Shown: positions 6,060 through 15,075 of the stretch, piece after piece
Position numbering within the stretch: position 1 is the first letter of the stretch
How the letters are laid out: each line of letters begins with the position of its first letter
Assembly (NCBI GenBank): GCA_910592205.1
Contig: CAJVPJ010000606.1
Location: 1-20,992, forward strand
Origin: Paraglomus occultum
Taxonomy: Eukaryota > Glomeromycota > Glomeromycetes > Paraglomerales > Paraglomeraceae
DNA length: 20,992 bases
Reading direction: 5' to 3'
Made by a program: the position numbers and the translations under genes
Notes under the pieces: model-generated
What the model saw: the letters and a program-made list of their open reading frames with translations, nothing else
Databases searched by the model: none
What the model was told of the DNA's origin: nothing

Positions 6060-7678
6060 TCAGTAAGTACATCCCAACTCTTTAGCAAACCAATCCAAAA
6101 ACACGACATGATACAACCCCTTCCACTTGTGCAAGAACTTTGGCTGCAAGAAATTATGACTCAACTGATGTTGCCAAGAGATAATCTCGACCTTCCAGCC
6201 TCTGTTTAACGCCATGACGACACATTTTCTAAAACCGCCTTGGAAATACTCTCCGTCATTCCCATCCCCCGATGCCAGCACCAATGTTGCGGGTGGGTGA
6301 TATTCTAATAAACTTTGAAGAATCTTCAAGTGCAAAAGTTCGTCCACACATTGCTCTCGTTCAATGGAAGTATACTGTCCGCGACGACGAGTGTCATGCG
6401 TCTCGTCTGAGTTGGACTTCACAATCCGTTCTAATACGGAGACTTCGTAACCGGTCGCTTCGGCTTCTGTCAAGTCTTGATAAAGCGGACTAGAGGCTAC
6501 GAGGACTTTGCGCGTTACATTGCGGCCGCGCTCGAGAATTGTGAATAGGGCATCGTAGGACAACCTTGGTTGAATTTGCGCTTCCGTATTTACATTATCG
6601 CCGGCCGCTTTTCGTGATTTAGAATTTCTCGCGAGTTGTCCGCGGTAATAAGAATAGAATCCCATGAGAATGTTTGAATTATCGATGAATACGTGAATGG
6701 GATCTGTCGACAATTGAATTGGAATAGGAATCTGTGTTGAGTTTCCCGAAGAGGGAGTAGGTAATGGTGGTTTGGGTTTTTGTTTTTGTTTCTGAGACGA
6801 GATGACTGCTTGCGAACATGATGGTGTAAAGTGGACGACTTGTGGCGGGGAAGAATCAAAATGGACTTTTTTGTGTTTTTCCTAGTGGGCCAGTTAAACC
6901 GAAGAGAATGAATCAGTAACTTATTTACACACGTAACGAACTATTTAAAACTTGGTTAGTGAGGATTCTTTAAGACGCATACCATTTTCTCCTCTCCGCT
7001 CTCCTTCCCACTCTGATCATTCTCTTCCATGTTCCCTTCGCCCGCTTCCCTGTTCCCTTCTTTCTCTTTCTCTTTCACTTTCTTTTCCTCATTCTCTCCC
7101 TCTTGTATATCCTTTTTCTCGATTGCTTCCCCTTTGTCTGCCATGAGAATTCTCTGTGAATTCCCCTGCTTTTCTTTTTCCGCTTTTTTTAGAATTCGTT
7201 TGTTTTTATTCTTTTCATTTTCCTTGTCTTTTTTGTTTCCGTTCTTCTGCTTATCTTGTTGGTTTCCGTTCCCGTTCCTGTTCATGTTCCCGTTTTCCAT
7301 AGCCTTCTCATCCTTTTTCCCACCCTTCTTCTTCTTCTTCTTCTTTCTTTTCTTCTTTCCGTTCGCACCTTCTCTTTTCTCCTTCTCGTTACCGCTACTT
7401 ATATCGTCTGAAGGGTGAAGTAATACTCTAACCCTCTTCTGTACAGCTTTTATTGTTCGTTCTATCATTTCCTCTTCTGAGGAGTATTCTGAGGACGAAG
7501 AGTGTGGTAACTGAGGGGGGTTGGAGGAAGATGTGGGAAATAAGCTCGATATGTCAGCTGAAGGATCTATAGCTAGCCATTTCTGTTTTTCCGACTCCAG
7601 ATAACGCAACAATGTGCCAAAATCACCAAGGTTGGGTGCAGGCGGCGTTGGGGAATAGCGCGGGGAGGTCGAATTCAT
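6060..7678 (-). CDS. NYN/PIN-like domain protein with Lys-rich N-terminal half, 505 aa
   Basis: Two exons, 7678-6983 and 6881-6060, join in phase 0 across a 101-nt intron (ATG|GTATGC ... CTAG|GAA) to give 505 residues. Residues 1-100 are Ser/Pro-rich. Residues about 100-230 are extremely low complexity: a near-uninterrupted Lys/Arg block, Asn/Gly repeats and Glu/Lys stretches, probably disordered and possibly RNA- or nucleolus-binding. A Lys/Pro-rich linker follows. From about residue 294 comes a NYN-type fold: a hydrophobic strand ending in FIDNSN (Asp299), a helix with CVDELL (Asp412), then LVLASGDGN (Asp438) and a strand with WKVEIIS. The spaced acidic residues match the metal-binding pattern of NYN/PIN-like ribonucleases (LabA/MARF1-like superfamily). 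RNA cleavage is therefore the likely activity, but the substrate is unknown. The start is the first ATG of the open frame. The gene is divergent from the ORF at 8060. Confidence 0.8.
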
Positions 7679-8840: not shown

Positions 8841-11800
8841 TCAATATAAAAGAATGATCTCGTCTTCCGCATATCCCAGATCCTTCAGTATGTTAAATAC
8901 AGTATTCATCATCCCATCTGGCCCACACACTACAATCTTCGATTTTGATATCTGAAAAGCACTCATCCATGGTGACGCCACACTAGGTGTAGCAGCGATC
9001 GGTGTCCAAGAGGGACTACTCCCTGCTTGAACGTTTCTATTCAGCATGGTGGGGCTATATGATGATGATAATGGTGTTCCAAGTACGTCATTATGCGGTG
9101 TGATCGGAACAAAACTAAGAGGTCTTGGTGCCCTTGATTGGATACGAGTAGGCTGTGAATTTTGGTTGATTGGTAGTGTTGTTTGGGTATCGGTCATTGT
9201 ATTGTTGACTTCGATGCCTTCGTTGAACGTTAACGTATTTGAATCGGTAACACTACCAACTTTACTATTTCTATTGCTATGATCAACCAGTTCATGCGCA
9301 CTGTTATCAACCACTTCATGCCCACTGTTGTCAATCACTTCATGCTCACTGTTGTCGATTACTTCATGTTCGCCATCAACATTCTCGGGAGTAGGTTCAC
9401 ATTCAGCGTGACCATAAACGTCACTTGCAACATAACCATTGTCCGTATGACCACAGGTCCTATCCCACACTGTAATCGGTCCCTGTGATGACTGTCGCCA
9501 TCGTTGTCTGTTTATCGTCTCATGATGGTTAAGCCAGGACTGTAATATATGAAGAGTAATACGTCCACGGAGACCATCCCATCCTTCTGCAGGCGGATAG
9601 TTAAGAATGTAGGTAGTCGTTAACATCCCATTGCTTCTAGCAGCGTATCCCTCGAGTTCGAGGCCATCAATGATGTCTTCTACATAATTATTGGCGTAAA
9701 GAAGATGCATTGAAATTGCACGGCCTGCATTTGCTGCCACCGTTTTTAGATGGTATTTGATTAACTGAGGGAAAGATAGTTACGATATGTAATTATTAAC
9801 GTTAAATTATAAAACAAATAGCGATTGCCATAATATTCCGCCTTAAAGAAAAATATGACATGCCTGGACCATCGGCGTTATGCCTGTTCCGCCCGCTATC
9901 ATGAATAGTTCATCCCAACATCCATCTGCACTTTCTGAATTCAATAACATATGACTAGATACGTCCGATATTTCTGACGTTATTGTAGAAGCGCGGGTCC
10001 GAGGACGTCTTCCCATTATAGTGGATAATTCGTTTTGTGACAGATGCGAGTATCCCACGCGGTCAGCCACATCGAATGGTCCTCTAACTTTGACCTCGTA
10101 ACCAATACGTTGTTTCCTCTGCAAATGTTAAGGTAGTAACAAATTAAAGTGATGAGCGGTAGCATAACATTGACCAGCAAATATCCTTACCAAATGCCTA
10201 GACATTAAACCGGTAGGATACACTTTAACGTAAATGGAAAACGATGTCGACATTCTTCCCTCCAATGGTGTATATGATCGCACAACTACTTGTTCCTTTA
10301 CGCGTGCTTGCAATTCTACATAATCTCCAGGCAAAAATCTATCCCCTACAAATCTTTGTGACTGATGTATCTTGGTAAAAGTAAATTTAATTACTGGATA
10401 CTGCTCACTAGCATTAACCCACGTCTTGTCTGACAGTTGATACCGCCTAAACACTCTTCTTCCGGGATTCTTAGCCAAGTCTTGTTCGAAATATGGATGA
10501 CTCTGAGGGCGAAAGTACGACTCGAATCGAGTAGAGTCCTCATCTGAAGCCACTGAATAATGGTCGTCGGCAATTTTAGCAACTATCATTTTGGAGAACT
10601 GAACCGTGGCAAAGGCAGAATGAGTATGTTTTGCAATCGGTGCTCGTAATTTATGGAACAAGTTCATGTTGGTCGAATCGATCACTTTTGAGAGCTTGCG
10701 TTGACGGAAGCTGGAATGAATATTGTGGTGTTGCCAGAGTTGAGAATATTTTCCCAAAATAGGGCTAACTAATGGGGCTGGTTGTTCATGACAATAAATT
10801 TGGACGTCTTGTAGTCCATCGTCCTCGTCTTCTTGTTGAGTAAGCTTGTGAGTATTGTAAAAATCTAGAAGATATTGTTAATGGGTATTAATCGTATTAG
10901 TGACGTCTTGTGAATTAATTTATATCCGCAGTTCCATATTACCGTTAGTGATATCAGTTCCTATGACCCTTTCTAATATTTTAGTTCCTCCAGGATGCTC
11001 GTTAAACCATTTTCTTATGTCAGCTACAAAGCCATCACAAACAACGAGAAAAGCCTAGAAATCAAATGGTTGCATTTAAAGTTATTGATATACTACATGC
11101 GATTGTGCAATTTAATTGAAGCACCAAGACAATTCCAACGATAAGTTTTCATTTACCCCTCGTTGAACTCGTTCGTTTACTTCATCCCATGACCACTCGG
11201 GTAGACCGACAAGTTTCTCATTTGCAACGTGGACTTGTAACGTCTCCTTTCCTTCACTTACAGGTTTCTTGCGTTGGAACTTGGATATAAATCCGCCATT
11301 TGTCGTTTTCCATAATTGAGCTAATAAAAACAGTAGAATTACGAACGATGTATAAACTGCGTATGCAATCCCATAGGGCTCGAAATTACTAAAATAGATT
11401 AGACAATGAGAATAATGTGAATATGACACCATGAGTTAATCGGAAATAAGATTTCTTACATTGAATATAGTTCTGCATAGAGTTGAATTCCCAAGTATTG
11501 GTTATACCTGTATAAACAATTAGATCAACTTGTATTGAACAAAATTTAAACGAATAATAGCCTGCTCATTTCTACTTACACCGCCAATACCATCATTGAC
11601 GCGCCAACATAACGATGCGCTCTCTTTAAAAATCTCGGAATACCCTCATTCACAGACTCGAAGCGTCTCTGACCCCAAAGCGTAATTAATCCCAGGATTA
11701 ACTCAAAGAACGTAAAGCTGTATAGTATCAATCCAATACTATGTAAAATGAAATATGTATTAAATCGATTGTAACGAAGAACATGACAATACCAAAAAAC

Positions 11801-14800
11801 AAATAATAACACATACACATTATGTCTTCTTTTAAAGGTTATAAGCGAGGCAATGGCGGCAGTTCCGAATATTGCGACCAAAAACCCGCCCAATATCTGC
11901 AGATTCCTATGCAACTGAAGATAGCCAAAGGTATGTTTATAGAAACGTACTAGGAAAATAGATATGGGGAAAATAAAACTGTCATAAGAGGAAGATAAGC
12001 AAAATTAATGTCGTTAAGAATTAATCCAATAATAGCCTGCGAATTGTCATAAAATATACCTCCAAGCAATTATCATTCCGATTCCATGAGCCAATCTTAT
12101 CTGCCGTTGCTTAGAATCGATTGAAACATCAGATTGAGCCGTGAAGAAATTAACGGTCACTGAACGGCGGTTGTTCATATGATAACCGATATTATCCGAA
12201 TCTGTGCCATATGCTATAATGACTATTCATATTACGAAATAAAATGTATCTCGATGAAAATCTTTGTAATCGCGCGAATCCGTTATAAAAAACACTCATT
12301 ATATTCAACCTTACATGGCATGCTGCCCCTTATAATTTCTTTTCTATTAGGCGAGCTAGCTGCAAGTGATCTTGCAAACTCAACTTTGACTGAAGACGCT
12401 GTTTCAGTAGCCTTAACAAATTTCACATCCTGATTACTGTCAAGCACTGGTCGATTATATCCCACCGATTTATAATTTTCAACTGTTGCATTACCATTTT
12501 TTACCTATGAAATAACACGTACGCTAAATAAACATGGACAATGTCACATTGAATGTGCAGAGCGTACTTACAGTTGTGATAATGAAATCGGCACCTATCA
12601 TTCCGCCATCTTCAGAACCAAAGCCCTAATGCGAAAAATCAATCATATACGCGTCATTACAATTTAGAACACACACAACCTTTTTCCATCCCCACCATTA
12701 ATGCCACTACTTACCATACCAAACCATCCATTAAGCGCACCAAAGTCAACCATAAAATTTATATCTTCATTTTGGATGTTCCATCTTATTGAATATGGCG
12801 GCGACAACACTTGGAGTTCCGAGGGATATCGGGCCTTGTCAGTGTCGGTTACGTTTGACAGGCTGGTAGTTTGGAGACTCCAGATGTTTTGGGGGACACC
12901 GTCAGCTGATGCATGGAGCATAATCAAATCACGGAATGTTGTGTTACGAACTTGTGCCCTTTCATCATCGGTAAAAGTATTTTCGTACCAAAACCGGTCA
13001 GAGTCGCGCAGGCGGGAATACTGCAAGATTTATTACAATGCACGAGTGTACGTAAGCACACACATAATAGGCCACAAATGTCAACTTGAATTGCAATACC
13101 TGATCGAGTATACTATTAGTCAACAATTGGCCAAAATTGGATCCATCCTGGGGATCTTCACTAAATGCACCAACATACGCTTCCAACTTGTCTACACTCC
13201 CGTAAGTATTCTGGAGTCGTGTCGCTATAGCATCATTGGAAGTAATCCCAGACCAATCAGTCTGTCTAGGCAATCCAAACGCCGCTCTCATGTCATTATA
13301 TAATGGGATACCTATAATCCAACCATTCTTCAAAATAAGCGTAAATTATGACAGGTTCCAAAAACGTTCATTAAGCACTCACCAAAATCTCGTGCCCTAT
13401 TCAAATCCCACGCAGCAACGTCAGCATAGTCGCCGAATGGATTTTGATACCCTCTTGCTTCGTCAGGAACGAATACGCTGACTTGTTGTTGAGACTGCGT
13501 AGCCATTGAGCGAAGTGTTTCAGCAAGACCAAATTTAGGGAGAAGCGTGTGATCTTGGATTCGAGACAGTGGGACGGTAGCTATCACTTCTCCGTTCAGA
13601 TTTTGCATATTGTATAAATTGCTTGTATTTATATAAACGCACGATTAATATACAGTCCATTTTTATAAAAAATCCTGCCAGCACAATAGCAACTCGTTGA
13701 CAATACGCGTCGTGATGTATAACTACCTGATTTCCGAATGACCATATCTCAGGGTCACAGTTAGGAAAAACGCGTCGATTGCTGGCATAAGTTGGTCATT
13801 ATAAGCTTGGTAGGGTGGCAATGGTTGACCAAGTATGGCTCCGAGATATTCTTCAGTTACTACCTTTTGGTATAGCCCAATCGTCCATCGTCTCTATAAT
13901 AAAACAACAGAAATCTCGTAAAGCAAGCCATTCACACGCGACTACTTGAAAAGTCTTTAAAAAAAAACAAAAGAAAAACAGACCGCCTCTTGGAAATACG
14001 TCTCATCATCCCACGCTGCTCCGTGTTCCGAGTACAACTTATCACACTTGGCATTATGCTCGCCGATCCAAATGGAAGCAACTGCTAACGTAAAAATGTT
14101 CTGTGACGTTATAGGTGCTCCAGTAATGAATGTTGATGTACTATTATCGAAAGCAGGAAAATTCGACCCGCTACTCGTCTTCAATTTTCCGCGTCCACTT
14201 CCAGAATCGCGTAATATCATTGATAGTTCCAGACTTTCACCATATATTTGATTGAGATCAAGAAACACAGAGACTTGGTTCGTTCCGACTGCATCGGGTG
14301 ATGGCGGTGGATTGTTGGCCGACCGATTGAAAGGCAAGGAAGTGAAAGAAGATAGTTTGGCTGCGGCAGAGTTGGGTATTTGGTAGGTGGCATCATCCGT
14401 TGGTATATATACCTTGTCTCCATTGAATATCCTTTGCGTTCTGACTAGATCAAAGATTATGAATTGGCCGAAAAATGTTACCTGTGCGATGTGACAGTCA
14501 TGTTAGTATTTATGGCGTATTCGTTGGATGAGACGAGTCTGATGTGCTGACGCGCCATTAAGTTAATCTCATTTACTTGCACCTTACCATATGGCTAATT
14601 TGCCTTTTTGAACTGAACGACGCTATAGCTGGGTCGTACGATGCTATACCATATCTTGAAATAAGATTTGAAACGCATCGAGGTAAAGGGTAAACATTTG
14701 TTGCCAATGCGGAAGAACAATTCACTGGGGTAGCTGGAGTCTGTAACATTGTTTGATTGGCATCACTGATTTTAATGAAAAGGGAAAGATGATATAAGCT

Positions 14801-15075
14801 GGTGATACAATACTATTTGCATTCTCTTCCCGTAAACCATTATCTTATTCACAGTTTCTATAACGCGTTTACCTGTAAAATGTATTTACGGATTTCAGCC
14901 GTTTGTAAGGTTGTGAATTCGATCCCGCTGAAGGGTTATTCTTATTATTTCCTGTTCCATCCAACGATCGATATTCTTGCGCATCGGCACAGCATGCTAA
15001 CATGATAGATAACAATACTAGCATCACATGAACTGCCGATTTTTTGTAGCAACATAATTCATATTTCATCATCAT
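8841..15075 (-). CDS. peroxidase-like / DOMON / cytochrome b561 / cytochrome b5 / FAD-NAD(P)H reductase fusion, 18 exons, 1584 aa
   Basis: Exons (- strand order): 15075-14873, 14765-14588, 14481-13984, 13893-13727, 13621-13383, 13311-13100, 13020-12715, 12625-12572, 12504-12315, 12201-12060, 11978-11817, 11738-11580, 11507-11460, 11388-11157, 11054-10943, 10864-10191, 10118-9864, 9764-8841. They total 4,755 nt with every phase matching, and introns are 67-113 nt. The start is the first ATG after an in-frame TAA four codons upstream. Domain order: signal peptide (1 to about 33), haem-peroxidase-like ectodomain (about 70-550), DOMON (about 555-705), b561 membrane core with His721/753/782/825, a fifth helix to about 879, cytochrome b5 (HPGG at 950), and ferredoxin-reductase-type FAD and NAD modules (RSYT at 1163, GGTGITPM at 1268, CGPDGM at 1557, terminal Tyr). 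Five helices place the reductase in the cytosol and the ectodomain outside. I infer electron flow from NAD(P)H through FAD, b5 and b561 to an extracellular acceptor, perhaps O2 or ferric iron. I know no name for this exact architecture. It differs from DUOX in having b561 rather than the NOX core. Confidence 0.88.
9276..9371 (-). repeat. four tandem 24-nt units coding EHEVIDNS-type repeats
   Basis: Four consecutive 24-nt units (9348-9371, 9324-9347, 9300-9323, 9276-9299 on the - strand) encode EHEVIDNS, EHEVIDNS, GHEVVDNS and AHELVDHS. They lie in the low-complexity insertion of the NAD-binding half of the fusion reductase. The units keep frame and diverge mainly at silent or conservative positions. 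This suggests an in-frame expansion under some protein constraint. Confidence 0.92.
9765..9863 (-). other. GC-AG intron in the large fusion gene
   Basis: The donor reads CAG|GCATGT and the acceptor CCCTCAG|TTA; the intron is 99 nt. It joins GGTGITPMVQ to LIKYHLKT in phase 0, which is exactly what the reductase family requires. Without splicing, the frame meets a stop a few codons later. GC donors are a known minor class of U2 introns; the exon side CAG matches the usual strong exonic context. Confidence 0.82.
10812..11204 (-). other. domain: cytochrome b5-like
   Basis: Residues about 915-985 across exons 14-16. It begins LPEWSWDEV, the usual b5 opening, has FLVVCDGFVADI, then the axial motif EHPGG (His950), and a second candidate ligand His973 in FYNTHK, 23 residues on, which fits the b5 spacing. 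The second His is not in the usual Gly-His-Ser setting, so its ligation is less certain. The domain sits on the cytosolic side between b561 and the flavin module, where it would relay electrons. Confidence 0.78.
11301..12097 (-). other. domain: cytochrome b561 membrane core
   Basis: Residues about 718-882 over exons 10-14. Five hydrophobic helices are visible. The four histidines expected to hold two haems are His721 (AHGIGM), His753 (LQLHRNLQ), His782 (RRHNVIGL) and His825 (AHRYVGA), spaced 32, 29 and 43 residues apart. Exon 11 contributes FIFPISIFLV and exon 12 contributes IGLILYSF. The third histidine sits directly on an exon junction, and only removal of the 78-nt intron gives the canonical His-x-x-Ile-Gly-Leu. 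The core moves electrons across the membrane one haem at a time. Confidence 0.87.
12140..12855 (-). other. domain: DOMON (dopamine beta-monooxygenase N-terminal-like)
   Basis: Residues about 555-705, encoded by the end of exon 7 and exons 8-10. The core reads IRWNIQ, then GWFGMGFGSEDGGM and GADFII, then a lysine/asparagine loop, and ends in YHMNNRRSVTVNFFT before the membrane. The glycine-rich GFG...GGM.GAD signature is the DOMON hallmark in proteins where the domain sits directly before cytochrome b561. Some DOMON domains bind haem b through Met and His; Met601 and His690 are candidates by position only. Confidence 0.8.
12868..14765 (-). other. domain: animal-haem-peroxidase-like ectodomain, distal site lost
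   Basis: Spans exons 2-7, residues about 70-550. Family landmarks in order: FFGQF (130-134), PFNRSA, FLDLNQIYG (200 onwards), the helix with GEHNAKC, WDDETYFQEARR across an intron, the proximal-His motif LRYGHSE (His345), DLNRARDFG (Asn423), and a C-terminal RLRDSDRFWYEN followed by VRNTTFRDL. The last blocks are most like the peroxidase homology domain of DUOX. The distal haem pocket is altered: the usual Asp-His after GQFx is Ile136-Phe137, and the usual Arg-Glu before the FLD block appears as Ala-Val. Classic peroxidase catalysis is therefore unlikely, while haem binding through His345 remains possible. Confidence 0.85.

Follow-up and report, generated by a model that had tools for sequence, protein, structure and literature searches.

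The 20,992-nucleotide stretch of Paraglomus occultum DNA analyzed here (the window; GenBank assembly GCA_910592205.1, contig CAJVPJ010000606.1, positions 1 to 20,992) carries on its minus strand, at 15075–8841, a gene of 18 exons that encodes a single fused polypeptide of 1,591 residues. A signal peptide, an animal-type haem peroxidase domain, a DOMON domain, a cytochrome b561, a cytochrome b5 and a b5-reductase-type FAD/NAD domain follow one another in this chain. P. occultum is an arbuscular mycorrhizal fungus (Glomeromycotina), and the fused protein represents a family that is large in this group, not a one-off gene. The new feature is that the distal His of the peroxidase domain is gone from all fused members with a letter at that place, while the proximal His and nearly all the putative ligands of the other haems are kept. 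This residue signature moves the functional reading of the ectodomain from a peroxidase to the putative electron-accepting end of a relay.

The source assembly of the window spans 32.3 Mb in 1,408 contigs. The exons were read at 15075-14873, 14765-14588, 14481-13984, 13893-13727, 13621-13383, 13311-13100, 13020-12715, 12625-12572, 12504-12315, 12222-12060, 11978-11817, 11738-11580, 11507-11460, 11388-11157, 11054-10943, 10864-10191, 10118-9864 and 9764-8841, all on the minus strand, and the splice reading was checked against relatives. They join in phase and are stop-free, compared with about 97 stops expected by chance for a message of such composition and with 95 and 130 in the other two frames. 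The G+C content was 42.5% in the exons vs. 32.7% in the introns. An automatic splice reading with 23 exons and 1,520 codons, including the stop, was over-split and was superseded by the reading checked against relatives. The product equals the NCBI protein P0001 (Paraglomus occultum) but for the start and two residues. The intron at 9863-9765 is of the GC-AG type; the NCBI model picks a nearby GT and drops two residues that are present in relatives. The first in-frame Met leads into a hydrophobic stretch at aa 14-32, and a start at aa 25, as in the NCBI model, would truncate it. The original prediction, made from the DNA alone, of one polypeptide spliced from 18 in-phase exons with the domains in this order was thus borne out, at a length of 1,591 rather than 1,584 residues.

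The same fusion was found elsewhere in the genome. At least ten peroxidase matches on four contigs and at least three DOMON matches on three contigs were returned by a genome search, and each of three DOMON matches adjoins a peroxidase in the same direction. Two further loci, L014 and L015, have the domain order of the window gene, and unspliced frames run over their domain junctions. The end of the peroxidase, the DOMON and the first b561 helix are covered by L015:5603-6682 and L014:1908-2639; the passage from b561 to b5 by L015:4631-5086 and L014:2729-3385 (the latter reaching the start of b5 only); and the passage from b5 through the FAD domain to the start of the NAD domain by L015:3565-4602 and L014:3623-4681. 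Because frames cross the junctions unspliced in these two loci of like domain order, the fusion is real, and the break between genes that the original prediction had named as a possible refutation was not seen. In addition, a protist MMETSP transcript marked complete (P0059) holds the peroxidase, b5 and the reductase NAD domain in one chain according to Pfam. Pfam does not reach the DOMON and b561 of this transcript, but by alignment all of the DOMON, b561 and b5 ligands are present.

All features of the gene (8841..15075) lie on the minus strand. The signal peptide (aa 1 to ~32; 14980..15075) contains the hydrophobic stretch and is followed by the peroxidase domain (aa 35-544; 12886..14973; PF03098, 9.3e-93) and the DOMON core (aa 575-675; 12337..12795; PF03351, 2e-17). 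The b561 membrane core (PF03188) occupies 11253..12100 and the cytochrome b5 domain (PF00173), which is interrupted by a loop of ~70 residues, 10563..11225. The FAD-binding domain with its RSYTP motif is at 10074..10388 (PF00970, 1.2e-11) and the NAD-binding domain with GGTGITP at 9528..9902 (PF00175, 6.9e-15); the final CGP motif of the latter, at 8927-8919, comes after a variable insert. An in-frame 24-base tandem repeat (9282..9368; 3.6 copies, 88% match) lies inside this insert and is a possible length-variable site.

When compared by sequence with the PDB, the peroxidase domain matched Dictyostelium peroxidase A (6erc, 6.1e-49) and DUOX1 (1e-30), and the nearest match of the reductase was NADH-cytochrome b5 reductase (2eix, 5.1e-27). 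In the same comparison, DOMON retrieved just tailspike rows (E 0.32 to 0.93) and b561 a single row, a plant b561 (E 0.76). Foldseek with the P0102 model ranked plant b561 first, yet none of its rows reached E 0.001. Matches in a viral fold library included a haem peroxidase from a giant virus and an alpha-dioxygenase.

The protein search set comprised 90 rows with a precomputed Pfam column. Rows P0001-P0055, except P0028, carry Glomeromycotina names from ten genera, and 44 of these 55 contain all five domains (peroxidase, DOMON, b5, FAD and NAD), the remaining 11 being without one or more. Outside Glomeromycotina the family was found in P0056 from Paraphysoderma (Blastocladiomycota), P0057 from Phlyctochytrium (Chytridiomycota) and the protist transcript P0059. 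The other rows were 23 bird DUOX2 or DUOX-like proteins, animal and metagenome peroxidases, P0060 from Jimgerdemannia and one nitrate reductase. Where the family genes of arbuscular mycorrhizal fungi carry a name at all, it is “heme peroxidase” or “hypothetical.” In a tree of 51 tips the family was grouped (39/39 tips) with a support of 93, and a grouping of the ectodomain with that of DUOX had a support of 41, too low to decide on a shared origin; the independence of the two plans proposed in the original prediction is thus tentative. The predicted architecture is genuine and is not confined to the window gene, the protein search having found a broad family. In all of the counts given below, the family rows are related paralogues rather than independent events, and each count leaves out rows that have no letter at the column in question. 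P0060, a garbled model, was dropped from the DOMON, b561, first-b5-His, FAD, tree and ascorbate-site counts and from those of the distal His, the aligned catalytic Arg, the proximal His and the Asp beside it, and was included in those of the second b5 His, glycosylation and the haem-linking acids.

A query running from DOMON to the reductase retrieved 23 rows, three of which (Globomyces twice and Polychytrium; P0104-P0106) have DOMON, b5 and SH3 without a peroxidase. Pfam found FAD_binding_6 in two of them and b561 at or near the cut-off in two, and the SH3 lies within the reductase part. Their DOMON and b5 ligands align; two of the three carry Lys in place of one b561 His, and the third has an altered FAD motif. 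Since such chytrid chains exist without a peroxidase, the relay looks like a module that gained this domain, or lost it. The other short rows of the searches for relatives represent fragments or partial models, and no case for a peroxidase-free relay was built on them. A metagenome protein, P0058, combines peroxidase, DOMON, a hydrophobic segment and a protein kinase in one chain, resembling a receptor kinase with a peroxidase-DOMON part outside; it is also without the distal His (Ala). A separate b561-like match was found in the P. occultum genome at G000:C69:12877-13146; its contig gave no match to DOMON.

The residues of the peroxidase domain were counted over 56 family rows, and the catalytic Arg was aligned with PDB-chain references. 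The distal-His place (Phe137 in the window protein; 14452..14454) holds His in 0/50 rows, with Phe in 23, Met in 14, Tyr in 6 and others in 7. By contrast, the proximal haem-ligand His (His345; 13738..13740) is invariant (52/52), as is the Asp beside it (Asp421; 13405..13407; 54/54), where catalytic references have Asn (or Ser). All eight of the nine catalytic references with a letter at the distal place have His there. In the four DUOX sequences compared (three bird DUOX2 and one DUOX1), the distal place is Ser and the proximal one is Ala or Ser. At the place aligned with the catalytic Arg, where the window protein has Ile (Ile251; 14110..14112), Arg occurs in 2/54 rows; Arg was found one place beyond in 26/46, the alignment there being locally uncertain. 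The acids that tie the haem in mammalian peroxidases are also gone (Asp 0/51, Glu 0/55). The 14 rows with Met at the distal place are P0030-P0032, P0034-P0037, P0039-P0044 and P0048; this Met could serve as a sixth haem ligand, which would make the domain a cytochrome.

A fourth peroxidase locus of the same genome (L016, contig C47), for which no DOMON match was found, represents an unfused paralogue. Read by eye, it has the distal His in GQFVNHDL, the proximal His in RYGHS and Asp at the neighbouring place. Within the genome, therefore, the loss of the distal His tracks the fusion (three loci vs. one), whereas the neighbouring Asp does not.

The ligands of the remaining cofactors were counted over the window model and 65 family proteins. 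The putative DOMON haem ligands are Met610 (61/61) and, just past the core, His697 (codon 12181-12179; 56/57 by alignment). The four b561 His, His728, His760, His789 and His832, are conserved in 54/54, 56/56, 55/55 and 50/51, respectively, so that the DOMON with its putative Met/His pair and the b561 with two His pairs, as in DOMON-b561 (CYBDOM) proteins, are present. The b5/b5 reductase module is likewise represented by two b5 His, His957 (63/64) and, beyond the insertion of ~70 residues, which the protist P0059 does not have, His1056 (65/65), by the FAD RxYT motif (Arg 61/63, Tyr 62/63) and by the NAD motifs. The original prediction had assigned the supply of electrons to NAD(P)H. The protein does have its own b5/flavin reductase; NADH is the likelier donor than NADPH, since the reductase is nearest to NADH-cytochrome b5 reductase.

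With these residues in place, cytosolic NADH would reduce the FAD, from which electrons would pass to the b5 haem and to the two b561 haems, crossing the membrane. On the outer side they would go to the DOMON haem with its Met/His ligands and finally reach an acceptor at the domain with the peroxidase fold. There, the His-ligated ectodomain haem, reduced from inside, would meet O2 and yield superoxide or H2O2, and peroxide would not be consumed. A haem that could meet O2 is suggested by the kept proximal His, and poor use of H2O2 by the lost distal His. We infer haem loading, direction, orientation, the NADH donor and the O2 acceptor from the conserved residues and the domain matches. That the flavin/b5 module feeds an outward relay is highly probable, and the retention of the ectodomain haem is probable; for O2 as the main acceptor the chances are even. 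The whole NADH-driven relay, with a His-ligated haem in the peroxidase fold and O2 at its outer end, is slightly favored.

Several points weigh against this relay. Glycosylation sites were not enriched in the outside parts of 56 proteins (10.7 vs. 10.4 expected per 1,000 residues), and the orientation therefore rests on the signal peptide and on family knowledge. The protist P0059 has Ala in place of the FAD Arg. In the window protein itself, position 267 is Gly, a residue found in no other row (Arg in 53/54), and this copy may be drifting. The places matching R307 and N311 of HYP1, a plant DOMON-b561 protein, by spacing only are Pro/Val825 and Lys829; the inner face of b561 is nevertheless basic (Arg826 42/53, Lys829 44/52), and ascorbate may still enter at this altered site. 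Moreover, mutants of the DOMON haem ligands of HYP1 were mislocalized, so that the electron-transport role of the ligands was untestable there, according to the part of that study available (PMC10784544). The catalytic Arg without a counterpart at the aligned place in 52/54 rows and the loss of both haem-linking acids fit a haem-free domain as well.

The explanation that survives best beside the O2-directed relay, though still a doubtful one, is that the main job of the protein is the reduction of iron or copper outside the cell, like that of plant CYBDOM proteins, with an ectodomain that binds the substrate or a wall partner. It overlaps with the O2-directed relay until the last step. These are soil fungi with many copies, and the DOMON-b561 part is like HYP1, which the portion of the paper available describes as passing electrons outward to ferric and cupric substrates (PMC10784544). 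However, HYP1 works without a peroxidase-like domain, and comparable chytrid chains do not carry one; its addition here should therefore serve more than metal reduction.

It is unlikely that the ectodomain is, as in DUOX1, a scaffold free of haem that only shapes or shields the site at which the DOMON haem reduces O2 or another acceptor. The missing acids, and the Arg lacking at its aligned place, would suit such a scaffold, but the proximal His and the Asp beside it are invariant, whereas the four DUOX sequences have Ala or Ser at the proximal position.

It is very improbable that the ectodomain still works as an H2O2-using peroxidase, recharged from the cell side to cross-link walls or to serve in defence: its fold and proximal His are present, but the distal His is lost in all fused members with a letter, 43 of these 50 having Phe, Met or Tyr instead, whereas the unfused paralogue keeps it. 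The wall cross-linking listed among the possible roles in the original prediction is likewise unlikely as peroxidase chemistry: the ectodomain has neither the distal His nor the haem-linking acids, and the place aligned with the catalytic Arg holds another residue.

Finally, that two or more neighbouring genes were wrongly joined is scarcely credible and was rejected, because, although the fusion was read in this fungus from genomic DNA, three loci have the same order, frames cross the junctions unspliced in the two other than the window gene, 44 of the 55 rows hold the five domains together (11 being without one or more) and the protist transcript carries the fused chain.

If the relay ending at O2 is true, the DUOX plan was realized in eukaryotes on two distinct kinds of membrane core. 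As a wider and more tentative proposal, which we put somewhat below an even chance, the protein would be a second DUOX-like machine with up to five haems (b5, two b561, DOMON and peroxidase-fold) and one flavin, in which the loss of the distal His turned the peroxidase fold from an H2O2 consumer into an O2-meeting end. It would be older than the split of chytrids, blastoclads and mycorrhizal fungi, as the spread of the family suggests, and would have multiplied in arbuscular mycorrhizal fungi as an oxidant source at the root interface. The family would then offer a candidate oxidase or metal reductase for these fungi, in which its genes are numerous. The kept proximal and lost distal His provide a direct test of the role of peroxidase-like ectodomains on electron-transfer proteins, a question that extends to DUOX itself.

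Elsewhere in the window, on the minus strand at 6060-6881, a 273-aa open frame has a weak NYN (nuclease-like) match (E 6.7e-4), under the family cut-off.

The fusion appears not to have been described: none of the matches listed in the literature searches described it in title, start of abstract or passage, although papers behind a subscription, among them a 2007 survey of DOMON that PMC3591440 cites, lay outside this coverage. Within that coverage, the other refutation named in the original prediction, an earlier description of this exact fusion, did not come up. A term search of the main text of the P. occultum genome paper did not find “peroxidase” (PMC9453076). In the passages available of a survey of the ferric-reductase superfamily, DOMON is placed on some FRE proteins and a peroxidase-like domain on DUOX, and this combination is not among them (PMC3591440).

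Among known systems, the animal-type peroxidases, such as Dictyostelium peroxidase A, have the distal His, the catalytic Arg and the haem-linking acids that are lost here (the Arg as aligned), where the domain is fused to a relay. Fungal Ppo oxygenases have a peroxidase domain of the same Pfam family, and Mucoromycota animal-type peroxidases share the peroxidase-P450 plan of the oxylipin enzymes, as stated in the part of the source available (PMC10629195); no P450 domain was found after the peroxidase at E 0.001 in the gene product. NADH-cytochrome b5 reductase and its fusions (CYB5R4, nitrate reductase) likewise place a FAD/NAD reductase beside a b5 with two His, but here the b5 is split by a loop and the unit is attached to a membrane core. 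The chytrid chains with SH3 have the same relay order and keep the DOMON Met/His and the b5 His, differing in the absence of the peroxidase, in the SH3 within the reductase, and in the altered b561 or FAD residues.

Animal FRRS1 is a CYBDOM protein. With plant HYP1, another member of this group, the fused protein shares an outside DOMON with a Met/His pair and a b561 with four His; it differs in the peroxidase-like domain in front, in the b5 and flavin reductase behind, which would give it its own NADH supply, and at the places that match R307 and N311 by spacing. HYP1 passes electrons outward from ascorbate over three modeled haems with the same kinds of ligand, as given in the sections available (PMC10784544). 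The claim at the center of the original prediction, a DUOX-like plan on a non-NOX core in which an NAD(P)H-FAD-b5 reductase is joined to b561, DOMON and a peroxidase-like ectodomain, is supported by the domain matches. As in DUOX, the reductase would lie inside and a domain of peroxidase homology outside. The membrane core, however, is b561 instead of the NOX/ferric-reductase type, DOMON and b5 are added, and no EF hands were found in the gene product by a Pfam-type domain search at E 0.001. In human DUOX1 the haem-ligand His is absent and the peroxidase domain holds no haem, according to the portion of the report available (PMC7794343), whereas here only the distal His is lost. Of the four DUOX features compared, the protein thus shares the peroxidase-homology ectodomain and departs in the other three, the NOX core, the EF hands and the loss of the proximal ligand; it is DUOX-like in plan but is not a member of the DUOX family.

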